From a virus, in the IMG/VR virus record IMGVR_UViG_3300020396_000027, positions 1-28,913 of that record: 28,913 nucleotides of DNA; one strand, given 5' to 3'. The first letter of the stretch is position 1; each line of letters starts with the position of its first letter. This document shows, piece by piece, positions 1,977 to 17,798 of this stretch. The notes under the pieces were generated by a model, which was not told where the DNA came from, did no database searches, and saw only the letters and a program-made list of their open reading frames with translations. The translations under genes and the position numbers were made by a program.

Positions 1977-2438
1977 ATGAAATTACCCAGAAATGGCATT
2001 GCGCGAGACATAAGACATTATATTGGAAGTTTATTTGTATTTCTATTAATTATAGGAATAGTAGTATGGCTTGTAATGTTTCCAGTATTAGAAACAAACA
2101 AAGAGGTTGTAATGATGCTTATTGGAACTATAAGCGCATCTATAGGTGTTGTTATTAGTACAATCACAGGTGCCAAACCCGATGACGTAAATTCATTAAA
2201 AGGTGATGTAGAAAAAAAACAATTACAAATAGATTATTTAACTAAAGCAAAAGATGATTTAGAATCTATGGTTATTAACCTTCAAAAAGAAATGCTAAAA
2301 AACCAAGATGATGTAATGGATAAGATTATATTAAAAGCAGCATTAGATTATGATAATAGAGCTGAAGCATATAAACAATTATCGTCACAAAAAAAATGTA
2401 CATGCGGTAAAGAAGAGTGCTCCTGTAAAGGTGAGTAA
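1977..2438 (+). CDS. Two-helix membrane protein with coiled coil and C-terminal Cys cluster
   Basis: This 153-residue protein has a basic N-terminus (MKLPRNGIARDIRHY), a transmembrane segment at about residues 17-39, a short turn, and a second hydrophobic segment at about 45-66. A charged, probably coiled-coil region follows (about 72-130), then a C-terminal CTCGKEECSC with spacing CxCx4CxC. Two membrane helices and a cytoplasmic charged domain would suit a holin-like or membrane-anchored accessory protein. The Cys tetrad could bind zinc or form disulphides. It sits between the tail fibre and the chaperonin operon, away from the clearer holin at 7942-8322. A second lysis-related protein or a superinfection-exclusion factor are both possible. 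I do not recognise a named family. Confidence 0.7.
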   Translation: MKLPRNGIARDIRHYIGSLFVFLLIIGIVVWLVMFPVLETNKEVVMMLIGTISASIGVVISTITGAKPDDVNSLKGDVEKKQLQIDYLTKAKDDLESMVINLQKEMLKNQDDVMDKIILKAALDYDNRAEAYKQLSSQKKCTCGKEECSCKGE

Positions 2439-2487
2439 TTACAAGTAATAATAAACTATAAACCTAACTAATTTTAAACCAATACCA

Positions 2488-2769
2488 ATGACACTATTTT
2501 ACCAGACTCAATCGTGGTCTAGTCAACCACAAGTATCCGAAGAAACCAAGAAAATTTGGAAGCGTTATTCAAAGAAAAAAAACTGGAGAATAACACAACT
2601 TCCTAATGGTTATTACCAAGCCGAATGGATTGATTTTAATGAAAACTGGAACGGAATTACAAGACGTGAAACAATTGAAGGTGCTGAAAAAGCAATTGAA
2701 TCCTCAATTGAACATTATGCTAAAAAAATAAAACTTTCCGAAGGTCCTGTTGTTGTAAAAACTTTTTAA
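2488..2769 (+). CDS. Small hypothetical phage protein (93 aa)
   Basis: This is a 93-residue soluble protein, basic overall and rich in aromatic residues. The core reads NGYYQAEWIDFNENWNGITRRETIEGAEKAIESSIEHYAKK (positions about 40-80; several short segments). A Tyr/Trp-rich strand pair followed by an amphipathic helix suggests a compact alpha/beta fold. I have the impression of a small conserved phage protein family with the 'TRRETIEGAE' helix, but no function is known to me. It has its own 49-base untranslated gap upstream, containing no Shine-Dalgarno, and lies 31 bases upstream of groEL, so it may be cotranscribed with the chaperonin genes. Confidence 0.65.
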   Translation: MTLFYQTQSWSSQPQVSEETKKIWKRYSKKKNWRITQLPNGYYQAEWIDFNENWNGITRRETIEGAEKAIESSIEHYAKKIKLSEGPVVVKTF

Positions 2770-2778
2770 ATAAAATAC

Positions 2779-2800
2779 TTAAATTAAATCTAATTAAATC
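2779..2800 (+). promoter_or_regulatory. A/T-rich start leader of groEL
   Basis: The bases immediately before the groEL ATG read AATTAAATC twice with one intervening variation and end directly in ATCATG. There is no Shine-Dalgarno. Leaders of the same type precede the genes at 9106, 15074, 16332 and 17874, suggesting a shared initiation or promoter element used by highly expressed genes. The functional role is inferred. Confidence 0.4.
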
Positions 2801-4354
2801 ATGTCAGACGCAATTGTCAAAAATCTCAGCTTTGGTAACGAAGCTAAGGATCAACTATTTGAAGGTATTAACAAACTTACAAAAGCCGTTAGTTCCACGC
2901 TAGGAGCTAGCGGTAAACGTGTAATATTAGAAGATGGAGGAGGAAAACCTATCATAACAAAAGATGGAGTAACTGTTGCAGATTCAATAGTGCTATTAGA
3001 TCCAATAGAAAATATGGGTGCAACGCTTTTAAAAGAAGCTGCTAGGAAAACTGTTAAAGAAGCTGGCGACGGAACGACAACGGCTACAGTGCTAGCACAC
3101 TCTATATTAACACACGCTTATCCTAAACTAGAGGAGCTTGGGTCAAGAAAGCTAAAAGAAGGTATCGATACTGCTGTTAACAAAGTTATAGATTATTTAG
3201 AAAAAAATTCAATAACAGTAACTGGTCAAATGATAGATCAAGTTGCAAATATTTCTACAAATAATGATAAAGCATTAGGCACGGTTATAGCTCAAGCATT
3301 TAGATCAGTAGATGAAACTGGTGTTGTAATGATGGAAGCTACAGAATTATCAGAAACTACCTCTGAATTAATAGAAGGTATGCAATATGATAAAGGACTA
3401 ACAAATTCCCATTTTGTTACTAAAGCAGAAACAAGAGTTGCGGAATTAGATAATCCAGTAGTTTTACTTATTGAATCACCTGTTGAAAATATAAGAAAAA
3501 TACAAAGTATACTAGAGCATGTTATTAAACATAATGAATCATTACTTATTATTGCTGATTTAGAACCAAAAGTTATTTCTGCTTTAGCTATGAACAAAAT
3601 AAAAGGTAATATAAAAGTAAATGTTATTAATGCTCCTACCTACGGTATAACTAAAAAAGATATGCTAACAGACTTAGCATTATTAACTGGTGCTACTATT
3701 ATTAATGAAGATTTAGGTGATGATATGGATATGATATTGCCTGAACATTTAGGAAAATGTATTAAAGCTGTAACTAGTGATACTGAAACAATAATTAAAG
3801 TTGAAAAAATAACCGACGAAGTAGCAGCTATTATAAATACTATAAAAAAAGACTTAAATAAAAAAAATACTGCTCCTGAAGTTATAAGATTAGAAAAAAG
3901 ATTAGCCAGATTATCTGCTAAAATTTCTACTGTAAAAGTAGGGGCAGATTCAAGTATAGAGCTAAAAGAAAAAACTGATAGAGTAGAGGACGCTATTTGT
4001 GCTACTAAAGCTGCCATTAAAGAAGGCATTGTAGCCGGTGGAGGAGTGGCGCTTTTAAATGCCGCTATGTTTATTAAACCTAAAGATAAAGCTGAAAGCA
4101 TTCTTTTGGATGCAATCAAAGCTCCCTATCACACTATCCTAGACAACGCTAATATTAGTGAAGCACACTCCGAAAAAGAAGGATGGGGATTAGATGTGAT
4201 AACGGGTAAATCGGTTATAATGGTTAAAGCTGGTATAATCGATCCTTTATTAGTAACAAAAGCAGCACTTAAAAATGCAGCTTCTGTTGCAACAACTATT
4301 TTATCTACTGATTGTATAATTAATAATTTAAGAATTAATGAAGGCAATAGGTAG
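2801..4354 (+). CDS. groEL: Phage-encoded chaperonin GroEL (Hsp60)
   Basis: This 517-residue group I chaperonin is close to full length (E. coli GroEL is 548). Equatorial-domain signatures are intact: DGVTVA with Asp55, the nucleotide-binding GDGTTTATVL with Asp90 (equivalent to Asp87 of E. coli), VEDA with Asp397 (equivalent to catalytic Asp398), and VAGGGVALL at about 411-419. The apical domain is recognisable from the IRKIQSILE helix and SLLIIADLEP. The Gly-Gly-Met tail of bacterial GroEL is absent; the protein ends LRINEGNR. All ATPase residues I can check are present, so it is probably active. It would form a folding chamber, likely for capsid or other abundant phage proteins. The start is the ATG behind an AATTAAATC leader. 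The 3' end overlaps groES by 17 bases, and the order groEL-groES is reversed relative to bacteria. Confidence 0.97.
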   Translation: MSDAIVKNLSFGNEAKDQLFEGINKLTKAVSSTLGASGKRVILEDGGGKPIITKDGVTVADSIVLLDPIENMGATLLKEAARKTVKEAGDGTTTATVLAHSILTHAYPKLEELGSRKLKEGIDTAVNKVIDYLEKNSITVTGQMIDQVANISTNNDKALGTVIAQAFRSVDETGVVMMEATELSETTSELIEGMQYDKGLTNSHFVTKAETRVAELDNPVVLLIESPVENIRKIQSILEHVIKHNESLLIIADLEPKVISALAMNKIKGNIKVNVINAPTYGITKKDMLTDLALLTGATIINEDLGDDMDMILPEHLGKCIKAVTSDTETIIKVEKITDEVAAIINTIKKDLNKKNTAPEVIRLEKRLARLSAKISTVKVGADSSIELKEKTDRVEDAICATKAAIKEGIVAGGGVALLNAAMFIKPKDKAESILLDAIKAPYHTILDNANISEAHSEKEGWGLDVITGKSVIMVKAGIIDPLLVTKAALKNAASVATTILSTDCIINNLRINEGNR

Positions 4355-4598
4355 AAATTTAATTATAAGTAAAGATAAGCAAGGAACTTCTGAAACAAAA
4401 GGTGGTCTGCTTGTATCTGAAAATCAACGAGAAGATTTAAGATATAATAAAGCAAAAGTAATTTCAATAGGATCCGAAGTTGTAGGCGTTAAAGAATTAG
4501 ATAATATTTATTATGATAATGCGGCCGGTCATAACATAGAAATAGATAAAATTATTTATCAAGTTATAAAACTTCAAGACATTGTTATAGTAATATGA
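4338..4598 (+). CDS. groES: Phage-encoded co-chaperonin GroES
   Basis: This 86-residue protein matches the 10-kDa co-chaperonin in length and pattern. Features are an N-terminal strand KAIGRNLII, a mobile-loop region SETKGGLLVSEN (residues about 18-29, with LLV where bacteria have the IVL-type GroEL-contact tripeptide), KAKVISIGSE, and the C-terminal strand KLQDIVIVI. It should cap the GroEL ring encoded immediately upstream. The start codon lies inside the end of groEL (17-base overlap), and its stop overlaps the next start (ATGA), indicating a translationally coupled three-gene unit. Similarity to bacterial GroES is low in the middle part, where the 'roof' residues lie. A second, larger GroES-like protein is encoded at 9591-10196. 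Confidence 0.9.
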   Translation: MKAIGRNLIISKDKQGTSETKGGLLVSENQREDLRYNKAKVISIGSEVVGVKELDNIYYDNAAGHNIEIDKIIYQVIKLQDIVIVI

Positions 4599-5041
4599 GA
4601 AGATTAGAAGCTAAGGATTTAAAAGAAATGAACTTAGTTAAGCATTACCGAATAATAAGGCAATGGGCAGCTAAGAACAATAATTTAACCGGTGCGGATA
4701 TAGAACTTCTTATATACTTAGACTGTATAGATATATTTAGCAAAATAGATTTTAAAATGGGAGCCTATTCTTATAGCTGGGATAATAGAAGATGGAATAG
4801 ATTATTACAAAAAGACTGGATTAAAGTTTGGCGTAAAAGAAATTATACTACTCAAAAATATCATTTATATAAATTATCTTTTAAAGGAAAGCAACTAATA
4901 AATAAAATATATAAAATAATGCTTGGAGAAGAAGATATACCAACAAGCGAAAGAAGAAATATTATAATGCTTGGTAAAACATATACTGATATTGTATTAA
5001 AAACATCAATAGATAACGTAAACAAAGACAAAAACAGATAA
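4595..5041 (+). CDS. Winged-helix (MarR-like) putative DNA-binding protein
   Basis: This 148-residue basic protein has a helical N-terminus (VKHYRIIRQWAAKNN), then NLTGADIELLIYLDCIDIF, which resembles the start of a MarR-type winged helix ('LT-AD-ELL-YL'). A Trp/Arg-rich segment (WDNRRWNRLLQKDWIKVWRK) could be the recognition helix, followed by a wing-like hairpin YHLYKLSFKGKQLINKIYKIM. 'KLSFKGKQLI' is typical of the wing and following helix of MarR-like proteins. It is translationally coupled to groES by an ATGA overlap. It may regulate late phage genes or bind DNA during packaging. Nothing in the sequence identifies an operator. I regard the fold as likely and the role as open. Confidence 0.65.
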   Translation: MRRLEAKDLKEMNLVKHYRIIRQWAAKNNNLTGADIELLIYLDCIDIFSKIDFKMGAYSYSWDNRRWNRLLQKDWIKVWRKRNYTTQKYHLYKLSFKGKQLINKIYKIMLGEEDIPTSERRNIIMLGKTYTDIVLKTSIDNVNKDKNR

Positions 5042-7058: not shown

Positions 7059-7433
7059 ATGGCTAAATTTTTATCATTTAACGTCACTAACACAGCGGCT
7101 CCTACTACAGAAGGAGAGTACTTAGTAAACGTAGATCAGATCAGTGCGGTAACTTACGCTGCCCCAACATTAACTGTAGAATTAAAAAACACTGCAACTT
7201 CACAAATTGCATTTGCACTTTCAACATCTAATGCAGGAGCGGCTACCCCAGTAATTACTGCTGGGACTCCAACAATTCAAACAGTTAACAGAGCTTTAAC
7301 CGCTAATCCAGGTGGAGTAAAAGCTTCTGTTGGTTTTGGAAAAGATCAAACAGGTGGTGTACCAGCTCCAGGACAAGCTCCTTTAGCTGCTAATTTGCAG
7401 ATATTTGTAACCTCAGTTACTTATACTGCCTAA
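7059..7433 (+). CDS. Probable small virion (decoration-like) protein
   Basis: This 124-residue protein consists of beta-strand-like segments rich in Thr, Ala and Val: MAKFLSFNVTN, EGEYLVNVDQISAV, TLTVELKNT, ANLQIFVTSVTYTA. It has few charged residues and no membrane helix. It is preceded by a 35-base A/C-rich, G-poor leader and followed within 11 bases by a strong hairpin. That suggests an abundant transcript with its own 3' end, as expected for a structural protein. A head decoration or minor capsid protein is the best guess, by composition and context only. Confidence 0.6.
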   Translation: MAKFLSFNVTNTAAPTTEGEYLVNVDQISAVTYAAPTLTVELKNTATSQIAFALSTSNAGAATPVITAGTPTIQTVNRALTANPGGVKASVGFGKDQTGGVPAPGQAPLAANLQIFVTSVTYTA

Positions 7434-7443
7434 TTATTAATTC

Positions 7444-7479
7444 ATATGCCTCTTGTTTCGGCAGGAGGTATATAATTTT
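7444..7479 (+). terminator. Hairpin terminator after the 7059-7433 gene
   Basis: A 12-bp stem pairs 7444-7455 (ATATGCCTCTTG) with 7462-7473 (CAGGAGGTATAT), with two G-T wobbles and a 6-base loop. An AATTTTATTTAT stretch follows directly. This is the shape of an intrinsic terminator or mRNA 3'-end stabiliser. The 3' arm contains AGGAGG, which here is better explained as stem sequence than as a ribosome-binding site. Confidence 0.65.
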
Positions 7480-9105: not shown

Positions 9106-9366
9106 ATGAAAGAAGTAAAAGAAAACAAAGTAACAAAAGAGCAACTTGTTAAAGTTAAAGAACAACAAGTTAAAGTATCTAATCTTTTAAGAGATATTGG
9201 ATTAGTAGAAAGTCAAAAGCACGTGTTATTACATGAATACGCAGGCTTAAATCAAGAAGTAGAAGAGTATAAAAAAGAATTAGAAAAAGAATATGGTGCA
9301 ATTAGTATTGATTTAGAAACTGGTAAATATTCTGAAATCAAAAATGCTGAAGAAGCAAAAAAATAA
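9106..9366 (+). CDS. Small coiled-coil protein (86 aa)
   Basis: This 86-residue protein is highly charged and almost entirely helical. Residues about 10-70 show heptad-like spacing of Leu/Val (EQLVKVKEQQVKVSNLLRDIG ..., HEYAGLNQEVEEYKKELEKEYG). The segment EKEYGAISIDLETGKYSEI after the coil is a recurring pattern in small phage proteins upstream of the terminase. It is probably a dimer or oligomer with an assembly role. It is preceded by a leader of AATTAAATC-type repeats and ends one base before the next ATG. Confidence 0.65.
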   Translation: MKEVKENKVTKEQLVKVKEQQVKVSNLLRDIGLVESQKHVLLHEYAGLNQEVEEYKKELEKEYGAISIDLETGKYSEIKNAEEAKK

Positions 9367-9367
9367 G

Positions 9368-9598
9368 ATGTCTAGTATTATAAGAAAAATCAGTATTGGT
9401 TCTGATTATAAAAATGATGCCATGCATTACTCCGTTGGCCAAGAAGTTTATGGAGGACATAAAATAGCTTATATCATATTTGAAGATACTGATGGTTCTT
9501 ATAATATTTTTATTAAAAAAAACAACGAAGTTTTACCATGGAAAAAGTTTAATACTAATATGGCTGTATCCGTTGAATATAATTTAGAGTATGAATAG
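9368..9598 (+). CDS. Small conserved phage protein (76 aa)
   Basis: I choose the ATG at 9368, one base after the preceding stop (TAAGATG). An earlier in-frame ATG at 9344 would lie inside the preceding gene. The 76-residue product begins MSSIIRKISIGSDYKNDAMHYSVGQEV and continues with DGSYNIFIKKNNEVLPWKKFN and a C-terminal VSVEYNLEYE. It reads as a small beta-rich domain. I recognise the overall pattern as a small conserved phage protein located near terminase genes, but not its function. Its end overlaps the following GroES-like gene by 8 bases, so the two are probably coupled. Confidence 0.7.
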   Translation: MSSIIRKISIGSDYKNDAMHYSVGQEVYGGHKIAYIIFEDTDGSYNIFIKKNNEVLPWKKFNTNMAVSVEYNLEYE

Positions 9599-10196
9599 TA
9601 TATATGATTTTATTGTTGAACCAATAGGAAAAAGATACGATAATACTTTAAAAATAAATAATAAAAATTTAATACTAAATTCTAATATAGAATCTTTTAA
9701 ATTTATAAATAAAAAAGCTAAAGTAATTTCTACACCATTAGCGTATAATACTTCAATAAAAATAGGCGATGAAATAATAATACATCATAATGTTTTTAGA
9801 AGATATTACGATATAAGAGGTAAAGAAAAAAATAGCAGTAAGTATTTTAAAGATAATTTATATTTTTGTCAAATAGATCAAATTTATTTATACAAAAATA
9901 ACAATAAATGGCAATCCTTTGGAGATAGATGCTTTGTTAAACCTATTTTAAATAACGATCATTTAAAGCAAGATAAAGAGCAAAGTCTTATTGGTATATT
10001 AAAATACGACAATAGCTCTTTAAACGAGCTCGATATTAGCTCTGGTGACCTAGTAGGCTACACACCTAATGGGGAGTGGGAATTTATAATAGACAATGAA
10101 CGTCTATATTGTATGAAATCAAATGATATTGTTATTAAATATGAATACAAAGGAAACGAAATTGAATATAATCCGGGCTGGGCAGTTAGCAGTTGA
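9591..10196 (+). CDS. Tandem GroES-like (co-chaperonin-fold) protein
   Basis: This 201-residue protein appears to contain two GroES-like units. The first, about residues 5-103, opens FIVEPIGKRYDNT, then KAKVISTPLAYNTSIKIGDEIIIHHNVFRRYYDIRG, which parallels the 'GK-V------VK-GD-V-F' core of GroES. The second, about 112-185, runs CFVKPI..., IGILKY, DISSGDLVGYTP, EFIIDNERLYCMKSNDIVIKYE, and matches the C-terminal part of GroES ('GD-V-Y---E--ID-E-LI---DI--I-E') quite closely. No clear mobile loop with the GroEL-contact tripeptide is visible. It lies just upstream of the terminase, 5 kb from groEL/groES. It could cap the phage chaperonin, act in head assembly, or be a repurposed structural protein. 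The fold call is from pattern recognition. Confidence 0.65.
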   Translation: MNSIYDFIVEPIGKRYDNTLKINNKNLILNSNIESFKFINKKAKVISTPLAYNTSIKIGDEIIIHHNVFRRYYDIRGKEKNSSKYFKDNLYFCQIDQIYLYKNNNKWQSFGDRCFVKPILNNDHLKQDKEQSLIGILKYDNSSLNELDISSGDLVGYTPNGEWEFIIDNERLYCMKSNDIVIKYEYKGNEIEYNPGWAVSS

Positions 10197-10407
10197 CGAA
10201 TTAATTAAAGTAGCTAAAGAAGCAATTGTAGATTCAGGCGATGATATATCAGCTGACAGACTTAAAAATGCCGCTGCAACTAAAAAACTAGCAATATTTG
10301 ATGCATTTGAAATATTAACTCGCATTGAGCAAGAGAAAAAAATGTTAGAGGATAATACGAAACAAGCTAATAAATTTGGCGGTTTTGCTGAAAGCAGATC
10401 TAAATAA
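10141..10407 (+). CDS. Small protein immediately upstream of TerL (candidate small terminase)
   Basis: The preferred start is the ATG at 10141 (88 residues: MNTKETKLNIIRAGQLAVDELIKVAKEAI...). An in-frame ATG at 10123 would add MILLLN. The product is helical: a first helix (residues about 8-30), a polar turn with DSGDDISADRLKNAAATKKLAIFDAFEILTRIEQEKKML and a basic tail ending GGFAESRSK. It overlaps the preceding gene by 56 bases, and its stop overlaps the terminase start by one base (TAATG). Size and location are those of a small terminase subunit. The helical, oligomer-type sequence is compatible, but no helix-turn-helix is certain. A different packaging accessory is possible. Confidence 0.6.
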   Translation: MNTKETKLNIIRAGQLAVDELIKVAKEAIVDSGDDISADRLKNAAATKKLAIFDAFEILTRIEQEKKMLEDNTKQANKFGGFAESRSK

Positions 10408-16331: not shown

Positions 16332-17798
16332 ATGGCAAATGTCATCCCCAGTTTTGGGGCAATTACACCGAGTCAATCACAACAGGCTCTTTCAACAAAT
16401 TATTTACAATTCACAAACGCTGCGGGAGCTAACTTTTCCTCTTTTGCACAACAGTATCTTCCTGAGATATATGAGCAAGAGGTAGAGCGTTATGGGAATA
16501 GAACACTTTCTGGATTCCTTCGTATGGTTGGAGCAGAAATGCCTATGACTTCAGATCAAGTTATTTGGTCAGAACAAAATAGATTACACGTTGCTTATAA
16601 TACAGTTACTAAAACAGCTGCTAATGACAACATTTTAACTTTTCCACTTGTGGCTGTCGCAGGCCCTACGTTTGTAGACAACGTAATTTCAGTGCAAGAT
16701 ACTATTGTTATTATGAATCCAACTAATGGACTAGAAGTAAAAGCTTTAGTTACAGCTAGTGCAGGTTCTAATGCCGCTGGTTCTGCTCTTGGTACAATTA
16801 CTGTTGCTCCTTATATAGGTGCTACTGTAGCAACTACTTTAGGTGCGGGTGGAGCTGCTCTTGCTGGTCTTAAAATATTTGTTTACGGTTCTGAATACAG
16901 AAAAGGAACAAATGATAATACCATTACAAGCATTACTCCTTCTTTCACTCAATTTAATAACTCTCCTATTATTATTAAGGACAGATACGAAATTAACGGA
17001 TCTGACATGGCTCAAATTGGATGGATTGAAGTAGCTACAGAAGATGGAACTTCAGGTTACCTATGGTATCTTAAAGCTGAATCTGAAACTCGTTTACGTT
17101 TTGAAGACTATCTTGAAATGGCAATGGTTGAAGGTGAGCTTGCTGCCGCAGGTTCTGCAGTTGCTGGCCTTGCTCCTACTTTTGGAGGAACTGAAGGTCT
17201 TTTTGCTGCTATCAACACCAGAGGTAATGTACTAAACAACTTTAGTGCTACTGCTGGTCTTGGAGAATTTGACAGTATTCTTAAGAATCTTGATACTCAA
17301 GGGGCTATTGAAGAGAATATGCTTTTCTTAAACAGAAAAACTTCTTTGGATTTTGATGATATGCTAGGTGCTATTTCATCAGGAGTACAAGGGGGTACTG
17401 CTTTTGGATTGTTTGAAAACTCTGAAGAAATGGCTTTAAATCTTGGATTTTCAGGATTTAGAAGAGGCTCTTATGACTTTTACAAAACTGACTGGAAATA
17501 TCTTAATGATGCTTCTACAAGAGGTGGAGTACAGGTTTCAGGTATTGATGGAGTTCTTATTCCTGCAGGTACATCTACAGTTTACGATCAAATTTTAGGA
17601 TCTAATATCCGTAGACCATTCCTACATGTACGTTACAGAGCTTCTGAAACAGAAGACAGAAGAATGAAATCTTGGATTACAGGTTCTGCCGGTGGTGCTT
17701 ATACTACAGGAATTGACTCTATGGTAGTTCACTTCTTATCTGAAAGATGTTTATGTGTACAAGGTGCTAACAATTTTGTATTGTTTACTGCATCATAG
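16332..17798 (+). CDS. Major capsid protein
   Basis: This 488-residue protein has the expected size and position (after portal and scaffold) for an HK97-fold capsid subunit. The N-terminal part reads NFSSFAQQYLPEIYEQEVERYGNRTLSGFLRMVGAEMPMTSDQVIWSEQNRLHVAYN, the 'VERYGNRT--GFL---GAEMP--SDQVIW-EQ-RLH' region I associate with capsid proteins of marine and Bacteroidota podoviruses. A long beta-rich insertion (about residues 120-180) contains ATVATTLGAGGAALAGLKIF. The C-terminal part carries HVRYRASETEDRRMKSWITG, compatible with a P-domain spine. The gene is more G+C-rich than neighbours and ends at a strong terminator, as for a highly expressed gene. It is the likeliest client of the phage chaperonin. 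The start is the ATG in ATTAATTATGGC. Confidence 0.88.
   Translation: MANVIPSFGAITPSQSQQALSTNYLQFTNAAGANFSSFAQQYLPEIYEQEVERYGNRTLSGFLRMVGAEMPMTSDQVIWSEQNRLHVAYNTVTKTAANDNILTFPLVAVAGPTFVDNVISVQDTIVIMNPTNGLEVKALVTASAGSNAAGSALGTITVAPYIGATVATTLGAGGAALAGLKIFVYGSEYRKGTNDNTITSITPSFTQFNNSPIIIKDRYEINGSDMAQIGWIEVATEDGTSGYLWYLKAESETRLRFEDYLEMAMVEGELAAAGSAVAGLAPTFGGTEGLFAAINTRGNVLNNFSATAGLGEFDSILKNLDTQGAIEENMLFLNRKTSLDFDDMLGAISSGVQGGTAFGLFENSEEMALNLGFSGFRRGSYDFYKTDWKYLNDASTRGGVQVSGIDGVLIPAGTSTVYDQILGSNIRRPFLHVRYRASETEDRRMKSWITGSAGGAYTTGIDSMVVHFLSERCLCVQGANNFVLFTAS

Follow-up and report, generated by a model that had tools for sequence, protein, structure and literature searches.

Chaperonin Genes of the Window

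The window analyzed here is an entire IMG/VR virus record (IMGVR_UViG_3300020396_000027) of 28,913 bases, which is probably a fragment; records of about 60 kb occur among the relatives retrieved via GroEL or the tandem lid. Three overlapping genes encode a group I chaperonin (GroEL), a single-domain co-chaperonin (GroES) and a putative winged-helix protein, and a second, tandem-type co-chaperonin gene is found ahead of the terminase gene (Table I). The first three genes and both of their overlaps (17 bases for groEL/groES; 4 bases for groES/winged-helix, where ATGA places the start over the groES stop) reproduce at the coordinates given in an earlier reading of this DNA, referred to below as the original prediction.

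Table I. Coordinates of features discussed in the text
Feature	Position	Strand	Basis
groEL, phage group I chaperonin, 517 aa	2801..4354	+	PF00118 196.7 bits; phrog_5725 428 bits
groES, single-domain co-chaperonin, 86 aa, LLV in mobile loop	4338..4598	+	PF00166; phrog_3188
Winged-helix (MarR-like fold) protein, 148 aa	4595..5041	+	AF2 model; phrog_17028 weak match
Conserved 84-aa ORF directly upstream of tandem gene	9344..9598	+	Homologue in 146/156 sequences; fixed order
Tandem (Cpn20-like) co-chaperonin, 201 aa	9591..10196	+	phrog_13932; AF2; Cpn20 structural match; hhalign
Tandem domain 1	about residues 1-104
Tandem domain 2	about residues 105-185
NLIL codons, candidate GroEL-binding hydrophobic motif of domain 1	9666..9677	+	hhalign to E. 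coli GroES GIVL
Conserved 94-aa ORF between tandem gene and terminase	10123..10407	+	Homologue in 146/156 sequences
Terminase large subunit, marks phage lineage	10407..12626	+	phrog_6681 7.6e-165
Virion structural protein and candidate chaperonin client, probably the major capsid protein	16332..17798	+	phrog_13704 1.9e-93

The groEL product spans positions 1-487 of the 490 in PF00118 (196.7 bits against a cut-off of 34.3), and thus has the Cpn60 fold at full length. Alignment to MG1655 GroEL equates Asp55, Asp90 and Asp397, the ATPase residues named in the original prediction, with E. coli Asp52, Asp87 and Asp398; all are kept, and E. coli Asp495 is conserved too, as Asp481. The C terminus (...NNLRINEGNR) has lost the Gly-Gly-Met repeats, as had been claimed, and the same absence is seen in the related phage GroELs compared. 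On the GroES-binding apical surface, Phe204, Leu237 and Asn265 of E. coli are retained, Leu259 and Val264 are replaced by Ile and Met, and Leu234 and Tyr203 by Gln and His. Gly375 (E. coli numbering) is Lys. The changes at positions 234 and 203, and that at 375, weigh against the mixed lid proposed below.

GroES scores 40.0 bits against PF00166 (cut-off 21.1). Its mobile loop reads TKGGLLVSEN, with LLV, as originally described, where E. coli has IVL; in most short GroES relatives this triplet is hydrophobic and leucine-led. The protein also matches phrog_931, labeled 'head morphogenesis' (E 0.012).

The AlphaFold2 (AF2) model of the winged-helix protein has a pLDDT of 88.5. MarR/TcaR/AbfR-type structures are the best among the Foldseek matches listed, with a TM-score of about 0.45 and E-values of 4e-3 and weaker, and the earlier guess of a MarR-like protein agrees with this model. 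The ORF has no Pfam match at E 1, and hence no MarR sequence profile. In Elemovirus, MW202828 and Panino, its relatives are close to groEL-groES and encoded on the other strand. The protein is probably a regulator of the block.

Against the closest relatives, dN/dS is 0.06-0.09 (groEL), 0.07-0.15 (groES) and about 0.1 (winged-helix gene). With dN/dS at about 0.06-0.15 across all chaperone genes and frames open throughout, these genes are intact and under strong purifying selection; the original prediction was right that this is not a decayed copy.

The order of the genes is equally constant. In all 101 loci that have both genes, groEL comes first; the identical 17-nt overlap with groES is found in 77 of them, and groES overlaps the next (winged-helix) gene by 4 nt in 93 loci. 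Such recurrence puts the arrangement far from chance. A full, linked pair in groEL-first order, which had been presented as unusual, is thus the rule in this lineage, and is annotated in isolated Elemovirus phages. Earlier reports bear on this as well: GroEL occurs in 36 of 78 phi38:1-like marine genomes (PMC5332604), and subunit gene order has been tied to GroEL phylogeny by Marine et al. 2017, as far as that work is restated in PMC9611531.

Shuffled sequence contains promoter-like sites at least as often as this region does, and neither an Rfam match nor a tRNA was found in the DNA searched. A terminator-like hairpin at 7444-7473 (13 paired positions, then a T-rich stretch), the longest stem of the region scanned, lies just past an ORF at 7059-7433 and separates the chaperonin block from the block containing the tandem lid and terminase genes.

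Phage Lineage and Origin of GroEL

Matches of the window terminase, portal and capsid genes are to phage head and packaging families. Relatives of the terminase are confined to phages of four genera (Flavobacterium, Cellulophaga, Tenacibaculum and Maribacter) plus a single uncultured phage, which makes a flavobacterial host (marine flavobacteria) likely.

The full 79-row GroEL tree was completed in quick mode only and has very long branches; for this reason, a smaller and more careful tree was used. Here, the window GroEL falls within a clade of virus sequences only (support 100/99), and forcing this clade together with Flavobacteriaceae GroELs costs 55.9 log units (AU test, p 0.0007). Recent capture of groEL from a host is ruled out by these results. 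Placement inside a host genus clade, which the original prediction had named as telling against it, is not what the tree gives, since the clade is phage-only and the host grouping is rejected.

The broader idea that these are host genes recently captured or decaying, and functionless, has in its favor the low identity of the window GroEL to cellular GroEL (about 37-39%) and the lost Gly-Gly-Met tail. Set against the dN/dS values, the open frames, the phage-only clade with its rejection of a host placement, and a gene order fixed in 101 loci, it is so improbable that it can practically be set aside.

Deeper joins between phage GroEL lineages lie on long branches and should be regarded as unsure. 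The best solved relative of the protein is a reconstructed ancestral Fibrobacteres-Chlorobi-Bacteroidetes chaperonin, and an old Bacteroidota origin of the phage GroEL would therefore fit, short of proof.

Cellular GroEL relatives recovered in a pattern scan were just short MAG-binned contigs, and were taken as phage contigs. Two phage groEL contigs (L264 and L265) are placed in an 'Aliivibrio' MAG; these are probably misbinned, given that the known terminase relatives of the lineage are flavobacterial phages. One record (G064, L037) contains, besides an intact copy, a second groEL at bases 2084-3532 that is broken into several fragments with internal stops; this contig may be chimeric or merged.

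A Probable Tandem Co-Chaperonin Beside the Terminase

The 201-residue product of the ORF at 9591-10196 matches phrog_13932 ('co-chaperonin GroES') along its length with an E-value of 5e-26, a profile that matches 10 of 14 control genomes and whose C-terminal half also picks up short phage GroES proteins. Each of two scans of IMG/VR, which may overlap, returned more than 500 stretches with tandem relatives. Two small ORFs (9344-9598 and 10123-10407) flank the gene, in a fixed order before the terminase.

An AF2 model built from 51 diverse relatives has a pLDDT of 84.9, and its least certain internal stretch, residues 31-40, immediately follows the domain 1 hydrophobic triplet. Among PDB structures, the top match to the model is the chloroplast tandem co-chaperonin Cpn20 (7ekq_R; E 3.2e-5, 211 alignment columns, TM 0.52/0.54), which covers its full length; the next matches are mostly GroES chains. 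In a viral structure library, the 200-residue cpn10 of phi18:3 also matches over the full length (TM 0.71). A PDB search with the single 201-residue sequence gave nothing useful, and the alignment profile of the tandem family returned GroES matches, all weak. The product is phage-encoded and so falls outside Cpn20 as defined by a chloroplast or apicoplast origin.

The two domains differ in how readily they are recognized. Domain 2 is clearly GroES-like by profile comparison with Cpn10 (hhalign, 97.7%, E 1.7e-12), and Cpn10 matches are present in 36 of 51 tandem relatives, the best at 2e-6. Domain 1 has no Pfam match; hhalign aligns part of it to Cpn10 with P 1.9e-4 (its score is 28.0, and the highest of 100 column shuffles reached 20.0), placing LIL opposite E. 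coli IVL. We regard the GroES-like nature of domain 1 as moderately supported, less firmly than that of domain 2. Comparing the two domains directly gave no signal. The window copy as a whole is below the PF00166 cut-off (14.5 vs 21.1 bits), and the phi19:3 relative is above it (31.7 bits).

The loop of domain 2 is short in the window lineage and has no hydrophobic triplet; consequently, this domain may not bind GroEL there. Longer domain 2 loops with hydrophobic stretches occur in the relatives from phi38:1, L241 and phi19:3. The cases are few, but the tandem lids of L241 and L006, relatives without a phage GroEL, have the longer loop with a hydrophobic stretch (for example GSIIVPNSG), and in the GroEL-bearing window lineage this stretch is lost.

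The location of the gene, which adjoins the terminase in nearly all loci, and the short domain 2 loop of the window lineage could indicate that the tandem protein has given up its role as a lid and that its GroES fold now serves in head assembly or packaging, beside terminase and portal. We consider this improbable: 51 of 53 relatives keep a hydrophobic triplet in domain 1; a single lid accompanies the tandem protein in every record that has one, as it does in MaF61, whose tandem gene is directly 5' of groEL; and the phi38:1 tandem protein is not marked as structural, though several of its neighbors are.

Co-Occurrence of the Two Lids

Among 32 related virus records, 31 have the tandem lid, the same 31 have the short GroES and 29 have GroEL. 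Both lids occur without GroEL in Cellulophaga phage phi19:3 (a complete genome) and in G084 (72.8 kb); Gundel_1 has none of the three. These counts are conditional, most of the records having been fetched through GroEL or the tandem lid, and the informative points are therefore the constant pairing of single and tandem lids and the dispensability of GroEL. Of the loci retrieved within the range of the tandem-lid query, all 14 with at least 9 kb of upstream sequence carry GroEL and GroES. Two crAss-like phages, phi14:2 (L321) and cr111_1 (L329), have GroEL and no PF00166 Cpn10 in the whole record; a 136-residue protein annotated '10kDa chaperonin' in cr111_1 has phrog_3188 as its only match, a weak one.

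The original prediction described a self-contained machine of GroEL and GroES. The pair is indeed intact, but the tandem-type co-chaperonin at 9591-10196 had been missed, and since it exists, plain GroEL and GroES are probably not the whole system. That GroEL and a single GroES nevertheless suffice, the 201-residue protein being irrelevant, would accord with the overlap of groEL and groES and their conservation as a pair, and with Bacteroides phage SJC03, which has GroEL and only one, single-domain GroES. It is very unlikely, given a tandem relative in 31 of 32 related records and the retention of both lids by the two records without GroEL.

Comparison with Known Systems

Flavobacterium phages of the genus Elemovirus (NC_055853) resemble the window in having groEL followed directly by groES, a winged-helix relative adjoining groES, and a long co-chaperonin GroES just 5' of the terminase; unlike the window, their groEL-groES pair is on the strand opposite the structural genes. 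Identity is 40% for GroEL and 33-35% for the tandem lid. The uncultured podovirus MW202828 (Manatee Spring) has all three chaperone genes, the closest terminase (62%) and a tandem lid that is 40% identical. However, its groEL-groES block is about 8 kb from the tandem lid, which is annotated as hypothetical. Cellulophaga phages phi38:1 (Pervagoviridae) and phi19:3 (Pachyviridae) also carry both lids, the tandem lid being beside or near the terminase, but in phi38:1 the order is GroES, one gene, then GroEL, and phi19:3 has no GroEL. Further reports concern the same phages or their relatives: cpn10 is a core protein of the Pervagoviridae (PMC8776804), Maribacter phage Panino carries GroEL and GroES (PMC11590407), and mass spectrometry has picked up phi38:1 GroEL both in free virions and in infected cells (PMC13288928). 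Its detection in infected cells means that phi38:1 GroEL is produced during infection.

Flavobacterium phage MaF61 likewise encodes GroEL together with two Cpn10 proteins, one clearly tandem and the other single, in a different setting: the genome is 168 kb, GroEL is about 26% identical and the tandem gene is directly upstream of groEL. The tandem gene of MaF61 (L330, 1912-2475) encodes a 187-residue protein with two Pfam Cpn10 domains, and the single Cpn10 is elsewhere. On these domain matches, MaF61 is a second phage lineage with a tandem lid.

Phage T4 and Pseudomonas phage EL also encode a chaperonin component, a lid (gp31) and a GroEL, respectively. T4 gp31 differs from the tandem protein in being a single-domain lid that works with host GroEL, and a functional interaction of the EL chaperonin with E. 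coli GroES was not found (PMC7185714). Tandem GroES-like domains with a single-domain partner are known from chloroplasts (Cpn20/Cpn23 with Cpn10/Cpn11), which also supply the best solved match, 7ekq. That system belongs to a eukaryotic organelle, no close sequence relationship is seen, and the window protein differs in its reduced domain 2 loop. In Chlamydomonas, Cpn20/23 and a single subunit form functional hetero-oligomers with seven GroES-like domains (PMC5780408). Even-numbered lids are also workable on a seven-fold GroEL: apicoplast Cpn20 substitutes for GroES in E. coli, and concatamers of six or eight domains function (PMC5780408). The same review describes the tandem lid type as unique to and specific for chloroplasts, and the use of fused lids on a seven-fold barrel as a 'symmetry dilemma' (PMC5780408).

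A Proposed Mixed Lid for a Phage Chaperonin

Our preferred reading, to which we assign a probability of about one half, is that the window encodes an intact group I chaperonin of the phage, which folds late phage proteins under a seven-domain cap built jointly from single and tandem lids. The parts, their intactness, the purifying selection on them and the fixed co-occurrence of the two lids are observed; the following account of how rings and lid are put together, what they fold and how they are controlled is inferred. The phage GroEL would assemble into a ring powered by ATP, into which freshly synthesized phage proteins enter, and would be closed by the single and tandem co-chaperonins. As in green-algal chloroplasts, where tandem and single lids of Chlamydomonas make mixed seven-domain rings (PMC5780408), the two lids would most likely combine into one ring with seven GroES domains, such as three tandem proteins plus one single subunit. 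Its grip on the GroEL apical domains would come from two kinds of hydrophobic loop, one in the single subunit and the other in tandem domain 1. Where a phage has no GroEL of its own, the mixed lid would act on that of the host. Probable clients are late proteins made in abundance, the capsid protein among them; regulation of the block probably falls to the winged-helix protein.

The distance of about 5 kb between the two lid genes counts against this mixed lid. It favors, instead, two separate lids: the short GroES would serve the phage GroEL, and the tandem protein would form its own even-numbered ring of six or eight domains, serving host GroEL, or one specific client, at another stage of the infection. 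The function of even-numbered lids with seven-fold GroEL (PMC5780408) makes such a ring workable, and in phi19:3 and G084, which have the tandem lid and no phage GroEL, its partner would have to be the host GroEL. Nevertheless, the short lid is retained wherever the tandem lid occurs, even where phage GroEL is absent (31/31). Moreover, domain 2 of the window lineage has no hydrophobic loop, so that a ring of tandem proteins only would have just three or four anchors. On balance, we regard two separate lids as rather unlikely.

A more far-reaching form of the mixed-lid reading, which we put forward tentatively and with less confidence than the mixed lid itself, is that flavobacterial phages have independently evolved an obligate mixed lid of the chloroplast type, and that relatives lacking GroEL have kept it, there taking over the GroEL of the host.

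The groEL-groES pair is already known in related phages, and the long lid protein is already labeled as a co-chaperonin in databases. Within the open-access literature, in which no report of tandem GroES in phages was found, the system with a tandem beside a single lid is new. The pattern in which the lids are paired, with the phage's own GroEL present or absent, suggests that the two lids together, and not GroEL, are what is conserved at the core of chaperonin use by phages of this lineage. Chloroplasts cap a seven-fold barrel with fused double lids, and the reason for this is a standing puzzle (PMC5780408). Phages with paired lids, with or without their own GroEL, would provide a second and apparently independent case in simple hosts, and in carriers that are abundant and culturable (Elemovirus, Cellulophaga phi38:1 and phi19:3).
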